Assembly: GCF_024296925.1 (NCBI RefSeq)
Contig: NZ_CP101125.1
Span: forward strand, 5,024,501-5,088,500
Reading direction: 5' to 3'
Origin: Pseudomonas nunensis
Lineage (GTDB): Bacteria; Pseudomonadota; Gammaproteobacteria; Pseudomonadales; Pseudomonadaceae
DNA: 64,000 nt
The position numbers were made by a program, and so were the translations under genes. Positions 49,558-61,718 of this stretch are shown piece by piece. Every line of letters begins with the position of its first letter. Within the stretch, counting starts at the first letter, position 1. Under the pieces are notes generated by a model, which ran no database searches, had not been told where the DNA came from, and saw nothing but the letters and a program-made list of their open reading frames with translations.

Positions 49558-50727
49558 ATGAATACCGCCGTCAATGCCAACGTAGTGCACGAATCCGAAG
49601 CCCAGCGCCAACACGCCCGAGTGAAAATCCCGGCCAAGCTGCGGTTCTTCGGTCCAGACCGTACGCCGGTCGAAGCCCGGGTCCTCGACCTGTCTGCTGG
49701 CGGCCTGGCGTTCAACGCCGGTCAGCTGCCGCTGAAGATCGGCGACGTGCACAAGGCTCGCCTGCAATTCGTCATCGATAACCTCGGCCTGGCCATGGAC
49801 GTGGAGTTGCAGATCCGCTCCTTCGATCGCCAGACCGGTCGCGCCGGTTGCCAGTTCCAGAACCTGGAAGCGCAAGACATCTCGACCCTGCGTCACCTGA
49901 TCACCTCTCACCTGTCCGGCGACATCGTCAGCATGGGTGAAGTGCTGGCGACCCTGCAGCGCGACAACTTCACCAAGGCGCGCAAGGTCAAGGATGGCGG
50001 CCACGGCATGACCCCGTTCGGTCGTCTGCGTGCAGTGACGTTCAGCTTCGCGATTTTCCTCGTCGGCCTCGCGGCGTTCGGTTTCATCTTCAAGTCGGTG
50101 TACGGCATGTACTTCGTCAGCCACGCCCAGGCCGGCATCGTCAGCGTACCGGGCATGAACATCACCATGCCGCGCGACGGCACCGTGCAGAGCCTGATCA
50201 AAGCTGACGGCATTGCCGCCAAAGGCGCGCCACTGGCGACCTTCAGCACCAGCATGCTCGACGTACTCAAGGGCCATCTGGACGAAGACCAGTTGCAACC
50301 GGCCAAGGTTGAAGAACTGTTCGGCAAGCAAATGACCGGCACCCTGACTTCGCCGTGCGATTGCACCGTGGCGCAGCAACTGGTTGGCAACGGTCAGTAC
50401 GCCAGCAAGGGCGACGTGATCTTCAATCTGGTGCCGCGTAACAGCGAAGCCAACATCGACGCGCGCTTCACTTATCGCCAGTTCGCCGACGTGCGTCCAG
50501 GCGCGCCAGTGACCTTCGAAATCGCCGGCGAAGACAAGGTCCGCACCGGCAAGATCGTCAGCAGCACCAGCCTGAAAAGCGCCGACCTGTCCTCCGACAT
50601 CCGCGTACAGATCAAGCCTGACGAGCCGCTGGACACCACCTTCGCCGGTCGCCCGGTGGAAGTGAACAGCGATCGTGGCCCGAGCTTGAACTGGCTGATC
50701 GACAAAGCCATGGCCGCCGGTATTTAA
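49558..50727 (+). CDS. alg44: Alginate synthesis c-di-GMP receptor Alg44
   Basis: Alg44 activates Alg8 on binding c-di-GMP. The 389 residues have an N-terminal PilZ domain with Arg17-x3-Arg21 (RQHAR) and Asp44-Leu-Ser46 (DLSAGG), the residues required in P. aeruginosa. One membrane helix follows (AIFLVGLAAFGFIFKSVYG, about 165-183) and then a periplasmic membrane-fusion-like domain that probably reaches AlgK/AlgX. Confidence 0.98.
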   Translation: MNTAVNANVVHESEAQRQHARVKIPAKLRFFGPDRTPVEARVLDLSAGGLAFNAGQLPLKIGDVHKARLQFVIDNLGLAMDVELQIRSFDRQTGRAGCQFQNLEAQDISTLRHLITSHLSGDIVSMGEVLATLQRDNFTKARKVKDGGHGMTPFGRLRAVTFSFAIFLVGLAAFGFIFKSVYGMYFVSHAQAGIVSVPGMNITMPRDGTVQSLIKADGIAAKGAPLATFSTSMLDVLKGHLDEDQLQPAKVEELFGKQMTGTLTSPCDCTVAQQLVGNGQYASKGDVIFNLVPRNSEANIDARFTYRQFADVRPGAPVTFEIAGEDKVRTGKIVSSTSLKSADLSSDIRVQIKPDEPLDTTFAGRPVEVNSDRGPSLNWLIDKAMAAGI

Positions 50728-50736
50728 GTCGAGGAC

Positions 50737-52248
50737 ATGCCTGTGACGATTATCAGTCTCCTGAAAACACCGCAAACCTTGTGGGAGCGGGCTTGCTCGC
50801 GAAGGGATCAGCGCGGTCTGCCTGATGCACCGCAGCGCCTGCTTCGCGAGCAAGCCCGCTCCCACATGGGTTTTGCATTCTGCTCGCTGGCCCTTGCCGT
50901 CAGCCTCAGCGGCTGCGCCGGCCTGCCCGACCAACGCCTGGCGAACGAAGCCCTGAAGCGCGGCGACACCGCGCTGGCGCAGCAGAACTACCAGCAACTG
51001 GCGGACCTGGGTTACAGCGAGGCCCAAGTGGGCCTGGCCGATATCCAGGTCGACAGCCGTGACCCGGCGCAGATGAAACAGGCCGAGGCGACTTACCGCG
51101 CCGCAGTCGGCGTTTCGCCGCGAGCCCAGGCTCGTCTCGGTCGCCTGCTGGTGGCCAAGCCCGGTTCCACTGAAGCCGAACAGCACGAAGCCGAAGGCCT
51201 GTTGAAAAAAGCCTCGGCCAATGGCGAAGGCAATACGCTGATCCCGCTGGCGATGCTGTACCTGCAATACCCGCACAGTTTCCCGAACATCAACGCCCAG
51301 CAGCAGATCAGCCAATGGCGCGCCGAAGGCAAACCGGAAGCGGGCCTGGCCCAAGTGCTGCTGTATCGCACCCAAGGCACTTACGACCAGCACCTGGACG
51401 AAGTCGAATCCATCTGCAAAGCCGCGTTGAACACCACCGACATCTGCTACGTCGAACTGGCCACGGTTTACCAGAAACAAGCCAAGCCAGAACAGACCGC
51501 CGAGCTGATCAAGCAGATGCAAGCCGCCCATGCGCGTGGCACTGTTTCCGCTCAACGCGTGGACAGCGTCGCTCGCGTTCTCGGTGATGCGACCCTGGGC
51601 AAGACTGACGAGAAAACCGCGCAGTCGCTGCTCGAAGACATCGCCCCTGGCTACCCTGCTTCCTGGGTCAGCCTGGCGCAATTGCTTTACGACTTCCCGG
51701 AACTCGGTGACGTCGACACGATGATGAAGTACCTGGACAACGGTCGCGCCGCCGACCAACCCCGCGCCGAACTGTTGCTGGGCAAGCTCTACTACGAAGG
51801 CAAATGGGTGCCGGCTGACGCCAAGGTCGCCGAAGAACACTTCCAGAAAGCCGTCGGCCGTGAAGTCGCCGCCGATTACTACCTCGGCCAGATCTACCGC
51901 CGTGGTTACCTGGGCAAGGTCTATTCGCAGAAAGCCCTGGATCACTTGCTGACCGCTGCGCGCAACGGCCAGAACAGCGCCGACTTCGCCATCGCCCAAC
52001 TGTTTTCCCAAGGCAAGGGCACCAAGCCCAACCCGGTTAACGCCTATGTCTTCAGCCAGCTCGCCAAGGCTCAGGACACCCCGCAAGCCAATGAGCTTGC
52101 GACAACACTCGAAGCCCAACTGCCGCCTGCCCAGCTCGCCGAGGCCCAACGCCTGTTGAAACAAGAACAGGCCGTTCGTGGTTCCTCGAGCCAGAACAAG
52201 CTGGATTTGCATGCCCTGCAAGAAGAAGACGGCGAGGAAACCCTATGA
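50737..52248 (+). CDS. algK: Alginate export lipoprotein AlgK (TPR scaffold) with a REP-encoded insert in the signal region
   Basis: AlgK is an outer-membrane lipoprotein with Sel1/TPR repeats that holds the periplasmic alginate complex and places AlgE. Mature sequence starts at Cys60 in [22 protein letters not shown] precedes ATG 50737. Residues 15-44 are translated from an 87-bp REP pair (WERACSR...REQARSH), so the ORF has 503 codons. Without it the protein would have 474, near the 475 of P. aeruginosa AlgK. Alternatively translation may start at the ATG formed at the REP border (50866), which has no ribosome site. TPR helices run from about 65 to 480. Confidence 0.93.
50780..50866. repeat. 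REP inverted pair inside the algK coding region
   Basis: TGTGGGAGCGGGCTTGCTCG to GAGCAAGCCCGCTCCCACA, 87 bp, exactly 29 codons, with no stop in the algK frame. It lies in the region coding for the lipoprotein signal peptide. All other REP pairs in the window are intergenic. Confidence 0.95.
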
Positions 52249-61628: not shown

Positions 61629-61718
61629 TGTGGGAGCGGGCTTGCTCGCGAAAGCGGTCTGACATCCACCCATGATGTCGACTGATACACCGCCTTCGCG
61701 AGCAAGCCCGCTCCCACA
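61629..61718. repeat. REP inverted pair in the algF-algA junction
   Basis: Main-family REP pair in the 210-bp gap before the last gene of the operon. Confidence 0.94.

Follow-up and report, generated by a model that had tools for sequence, protein, structure and literature searches.

REPINs are held to avoid genes. In the window analysed here, a stretch of 64,000 nucleotides from Pseudomonas nunensis, one such element lies within the reading frame of the alginate gene algK, which raises the question of whether it is translated, how it came to be there and whether it serves the protein or its mRNA.

The algK REPIN and its surroundings

The algK open reading frame (50,737–52,248, + strand) encodes a product of 503 amino acids, the alginate biosynthesis TPR lipoprotein AlgK, as identified from the list of open reading frames, public AlgK-named proteins and the AlgK structural chains 3e4b and 7ula, which align with the product from residues 61 and 60, respectively. 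The preceding gene, alg44, ends at 50,727 and is followed by an SD-like stretch, GAGGAC, and by ATG CCT GTG at 50,737–50,745 (together 50,731–50,745, + strand), in which the ATG at 50,737 or the GTG at 50,743 is the possible start. Residues 1–15 form the stretch before a REP 5′ arm of A type (50,781–50,802, + strand), which is read as (L)WERACSR (residues 16–22). A loop of 14 residues (23–36; 50,803–50,843, + strand) separates it from a REP 3′ arm, also of A type but on the − strand (50,844–50,865), whose + strand reading is REQARSH (residues 37–43). The hydrophobic region and the lipobox LSGC follow directly (residues 44–60; 50,866–50,916, + strand), with the lipobox Cys as residue 60. Both strict arms are exact matches to GTGGGAGCGGGCTTGCTCGCGA, and the REPIN measures 85 bp, or 87 bp (50,780–50,866) when the outer T and A are included. 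The preliminary description, which reported an 87-bp REP pair in frame within the algK signal peptide and WERACSR and REQARSH as encoded by its arms, is thus borne out; the 474-residue precursor given there is a plain subtraction, 503 minus 29.

The element consists of two opposed REPs with a short spacer and is hairpin-capable, as in a REPIN doublet. The 21-mer core of the A-type arm has 1,352 exact copies in the P. nunensis genome against 0 for the backwards control, so the algK arm is no chance match, and many REP copies genome-wide are what is expected of a REPIN. Extragenic placement is usual for REPINs, although it is no part of the doublet definition; here the REPIN sits inside the algK frame. 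The genome has four Y1_Tnp genes, one of which carries A-type REPs on both sides and is, judging by its Y1_Tnp match and its REP flanks, a putative RAYT-type transposase gene flanked by REPs. The window holds eight further head-to-head REPINs, with an arm offset of 66 bp (88 bp in all) as against 63 bp (85 bp) in algK, and two outward-facing REP pairs. The earlier statement that all the other REPs are intergenic needs qualification: five of these 10 pairs fall within stop-to-stop frames of at least 240 codons. Four of these, in a check that consisted of inspecting the translations, look like extensions that are either upstream or antisense, and the fifth runs antisense to the algA frame.

Distribution among relatives

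Among the named loci, which are the best 80 of 237 confirmed and form a biased set because they were ranked by likeness to the query, 79 have REP-derived codons at the algK site, the exception being L080. Both arms are present in 75 of these loci, and in L092, L099, L103 and L104 the 3′ arm is broken or shortened. The genus sample comprised handles G001–G144 of 398 genus genomes, of which 132 have algK and 12 lack it at E ≤ 1e-30. REP-derived codons were found in 66 of the 132 algK-bearing genomes, and no REP was recognised in the other 66. Element classes R1–R10 were defined by peptide patterns, part of them being inspected as DNA; by this assignment the 66 REP-bearing genomes comprise 41 with R1 (the window's kind), 8 with R2, 5 with R3 and 12 with others, including two remnants. 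Two rows scored as having no element, L151 and L232, may hold remnants; L154, L155 and L264, which have long n-regions of unassigned source, are among the rows without a REP, and the distant AlgK rows L139, L262, L263 and L269 were scored as lacking the element within the 132 and were omitted from the tree described below. The named and handle sets overlap, so that many rows represent one genome met twice. In other genera, no REP-derived codons were present at this place in any of the 16 algK loci examined.

Among the 120 public AlgK proteins listed, of 517 found, the 5′ arm peptide is R1-like in 49 and R2-like in 4, and 58 have none; a further nine match through the 3′-arm peptide alone and may include other REP arrangements. 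The preliminary description had regarded the algK insertion as unusual, a view that does not survive its occurrence in 66 of 132 genus genomes, and with 79 of 80 named loci also carrying REP codons we dismissed the single-case status of this REPIN. It had further asked whether close relatives might all carry an unrelated 29-codon segment at this place; the near relatives hold related REPINs.

Two minor observations concern this protein set and genome sample. The AlgK N-termini of P0058 (named P. protegens), P0061 and P0065 contain REP-like peptides in another order, REQAR.. and then RSELARE. A second AlgK-like open reading frame, of about 48–49% identity, is present in G058, G046, G060 and G027, which suggests a second related cluster.

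Reading frame and translation start

An ATGnnnGTG following GAGGA(C/T) is found in 150 of 168 REP-bearing rows. For the frame count, 151 R1 and R2 rows were used, and L092, L093, L163 and L210 lack the start motif; in all 147 rows that have it (127 of them distinct, with 12 lengths), the distance from the start to the lipobox Cys is a multiple of three. In the translated frame, none of the 115 distinct REPIN segments contains a stop, compared with 76 and 23 stop-free segments in the two remaining forward frames. Of 121 REPINs from other places, both orientations counted, 29 are stop-free in the window's frame.

The REPIN in the algF–algA spacer of the same operon (61,630–61,717, + strand) served as a comparison, and no frame rule applies there. 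Among 29 readable spacers of 30 fetched, lengths of 0, 1 and 2 modulo 3 occur 11, 9 and 9 times; of these 29, which include the window's own, 22 have both REP arms, five have one and two have none. Stops also appear to restrict the type of arm at algK. GTAG-type arms make up 12 of 115 distinct 3′ arms but 0 of 102 distinct 5′ arms in the WERACSR frame, in which a GTAG-type 5′ arm would give TTG TAG, and the one GTAG-type 5′ arm present is in a different frame (L224). Inserts of the RPE-like kind are palindromes translated in frame within conserved proteins; at algK, frame and stop-free reading are kept, and the REPIN may be such an insert. The algK REPIN is in all likelihood translated as part of the signal peptide, and the conservation of frame and of freedom from stops makes translation from the upstream start most likely.

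If translation of algK started after the REPIN, the element would be extragenic and its place in the frame a mis-annotation, of the sort that PMC3733652 suspects in N-terminal REPs. An ATG does stand immediately 3′ of the REP 3′ arm in the window. When 126 distinct tails are searched for a first possible start lying 14 or more codons ahead of the Cys, 50 give an ATG and eight more a TTG or GTG, and across 147 arm-bearing rows, the window included, an ATG after the 3′ arm and at least 14 codons before the Cys is available in 57 and a GTG or TTG in nine more. However, 68 of the 126 distinct tails offer no ATG, GTG or TTG after the REPIN at least 14 codons before the Cys, and a downstream start would enforce neither multiples of three nor stop-free loops. 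Moreover, the downstream start of the window would leave 16 residues before the Cys with no Lys or Arg, and it is without an SD-like stretch. On the frame, the stops and the absent downstream starts, we judged an extragenic REP with a wrongly assigned start to be very unlikely; initiation downstream of the REP codons, raised as a counter-case in the preliminary description, is contradicted by the conservation of frame and stops.

In L189 (G034), the N-terminal and later parts of algK are in different frames, which reflects a frameshift or an assembly error.

Arm types and elements at the site

The clades differ in the REP family that they carry at the algK site and in how it is read, and all three frames are used: among the 115 distinct segments, the arm is at offset 1 (WERACSR) in 102, at offset 0 (VGAGLARD and others) in 10 and at offset 2 (CGSRLAGD) in three. 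The arms stand in outward order in L229, L234 and L238. Nested elements also occur, L059 and L192 each being a REPIN within the arm remnants of another, and L163 and L166 having an R2 element between R1-like remnants. The nested and multi-frame elements suggest that the algK REPIN is mobile. Small in-frame inserts recur as well, namely VGSPHR within the 3′ arm in L092, L188 and L212, and SSATPA(D/N) ahead of the 3′ arm in L025, L072, L075, L081, L180, L200 and L203.

Five arm types were counted in 80 genomes and compared with the algK arms of the 63 R1-bearing ones, of which 44 5′ arms and 42 3′ arms were typed exactly, while 19 5′ and 21 3′ arms were omitted as matching none of the types. Each of the five types is commoner in genomes whose algK has it (Mann–Whitney p 2e-5 to 7e-5); for type E, the median is 424.5 copies in genomes with an E arm in algK and 0 otherwise. 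Every exactly typed arm is also present elsewhere in its own genome, usually abundantly, the lowest resident count being one further C copy in G158. For either arm, 0 of 5,000 shuffles, which ignore relatedness, reached the observed fit between arms and residents. Many genomes also contain REP types that their algK does not use. In the algF–algA spacer, where 27 of 29 sequences have at least one REP arm, the types change too and hybrids such as A2/E2 and D/B are found, so arm changes and hybrids are not special to algK.

History of the signal segment

A FastTree tree of 247 rows, in which some genomes appear twice, requires no fewer than 22 changes of occupancy and 31 of element class, counts that do not tell the direction of change. 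Natural REP-free algK genes (for example, L158 and L156) are interspersed with REP-bearing rows. Gain and loss are not separable in this pattern, and an exchange of whole signal alleles would look alike.

Distances between loops correlate weakly with those between mature algK sequences (rho 0.095, a value reached in 2 of 199 permutations). Whole alg44 stretches gave rho 0.61 against mature algK, and runs of 41 variable third-position alg44 sites gave 0.30–0.54, above the loop. With 41 contiguous bases, the range was 0.09 to 0.56 for alg44 and 0.02 to 0.61 for mature algK against alg44, so that the loop is at the low edge of the contiguous-41-base range and not clearly beyond it. This is a hint of possibly faster turnover or recombination in the signal segment than in the flanking sequence. 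Given the weak tracking of mature algK by the loop, recombination among strains may be as important as transposition. The simple vertical descent of one old insert is unsupported in view of this weak tracking and of the at least 22 occupancy and 31 class changes.

A near-identical REP-free signal allele (TSPLRILPVPLTLAMAIALAGC and close forms) is shared by L080, L149, L150, L152, L153, L159 and L160; its occurrence at several separate positions in the algK tree looks like an exchange of entire signal alleles.

The encoded peptide and the hairpin

In 110 equal-length R1 rows (85 distinct), the loop has diversities of 0.300, 0.281 and 0.235 at the first, second and third codon positions. The corresponding values are 0.074, 0.042 and 0.293 for the first 150 codons of mature algK and 0.069, 0.050 and 0.218 for the end of alg44. 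The three codon positions of the loop vary alike, and by this test its peptide is therefore not conserved; variation in the arms is mostly at few sites, namely those that separate the REP types. What persists is thus the reading frame and, at the DNA level, the identity as a REP, and not the residues. The preliminary description had spoken of a domesticated REP, but neither the loop, with no third-position excess, nor the 66 of 132 genomes without a recognised REP speaks for it, and domestication of the peptide is unsupported by codon-position diversity. It is accordingly very doubtful that the REP-coded peptide was recruited as a functional extended n-region that, for example, slows export. 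Such recruitment would be in keeping with the positive charge of the added n-region (median net +3) and with the preserved frame; against this, no purifying selection is seen on the amino acids, and the different frames used in different clades give unrelated peptides.

A function of the RNA is somewhat easier to entertain, namely that the mRNA hairpin delays the ribosome or adjusts either translation or mRNA stability in the alg operon. The hairpin, of at least 22 bp, starts 44 nt after the A of the ATG and is predicted to be very stable (z −4.78; 0 of 200 shuffles equally stable). The arms are identical over 22 bp in 81 of 147 elements, the distances of the two arms correlate (rho 0.53), and conservation of the arms at the DNA level would also be expected from a hairpin function. 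On the other hand, 57 of 138 elements have one to seven arm mismatches in 22 (the 138 being the 147 minus eight R2 rows and L059, in which the arm match was off by one base or wrong), and half of the sampled genus genomes have no recognised REP at algK. The algF–algA REPIN has the same paired and hybrid arms; arm pairing is therefore general to REPINs, and a hairpin function specific to algK was rejected on this control. Overall, we regard the hairpin reading as improbable. A role of the element in export or translation, as proposed in the preliminary description, would be possible but is not indicated by these sequence comparisons.

Interpretation of the site

The arms match the cell's own repeats and algK remains an open frame, which points to the signal as a landing site that tolerates insertion, and less to a newly acquired function. 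We consider it quite probable that the algK site is an ordinary, living REPIN site within coding sequence, where an unconstrained n-region tolerates the elements and frame and stops act as a filter on them. RAYT-type transposase activity, recombination or both would bring REPINs into the alg44–algK junction and renew their arms. Added residues, which are mostly positively charged, would be tolerated in the n-region since the signal requires no more than its hydrophobic core and lipobox; selection would then act just against copies that cause a frameshift or introduce a stop. The number of residues to the Cys is 52–71 in arm-bearing rows and 27 in the REP-free L158. Translation would include the REP-coded peptide, which would then be lost along with the signal peptide.

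A broader proposal, which we put forward tentatively and at somewhat less than even odds, is that the algK n-region is a safe harbour for REPINs across a Pseudomonas genus, translated and repeatedly recolonised, in which the frame filters REP types and lengths and the arms co-evolve with the transposase while being translated in an export signal. The three reading frames, both arm orders and the REPINs inside REPINs are its basis. What distinguishes the locus is an in-frame site occupied in half of the sampled genus, with the algF–algA spacer as a control in the same operon. A comparison of the two sites would measure the effect of a coding frame on a mobile element, in terms of the types, lengths and indels that survive, and arms at an orthologous site that match the REP types of their own genome bear on how REPIN populations stay uniform. 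The locus is also a warning that signal-peptide annotations in Pseudomonas can contain translated repeats.

Relation to known elements

No paper on REPs in algK was found among the titles and abstract beginnings of the open-licence PMC papers listed, and a supplementary file may yet name the gene. The algK REPIN resembles the Pseudomonas REPINs and GTAG-1 REPs described in the available text of PMC3116915 and PMC3733652 in its arms, its head-to-head doublet form, its hundreds of copies and its own-genome types; the difference is that the algK copy is intragenic, whereas in SBW25 a gene overlap is given for just 14 of 1,067 REP 16-mers (PMC3116915). Intragenic REPs of other bacteria are listed in PMC3733652, likewise inside open reading frames and often of 20–30 residues, with the remark that N-terminal ones are often extragenic through wrong starts. 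According to the portions of that article that deal with them, the N-terminal REPs of P. putida, C. koseri and S. maltophilia were mostly judged noncoding, whereas the conservation of frame and stops at algK favours translation. Unlike those intragenic REPs, algK is one gene with REPs in three frames.

Palindromic elements of Rickettsia and MITE fusions of enterobacteria are likewise mobile palindromes joined in frame to proteins of the host, and among the in-frame MITE fusions reviewed in PMC2229807, as far as its available text goes, one makes part of a signal peptide, that of Yersinia YPO1552. The likeness to algK is drawn at the level of description, and algK differs from these cases in that its site is recurrent and its arms vary between genomes with the resident repeats.
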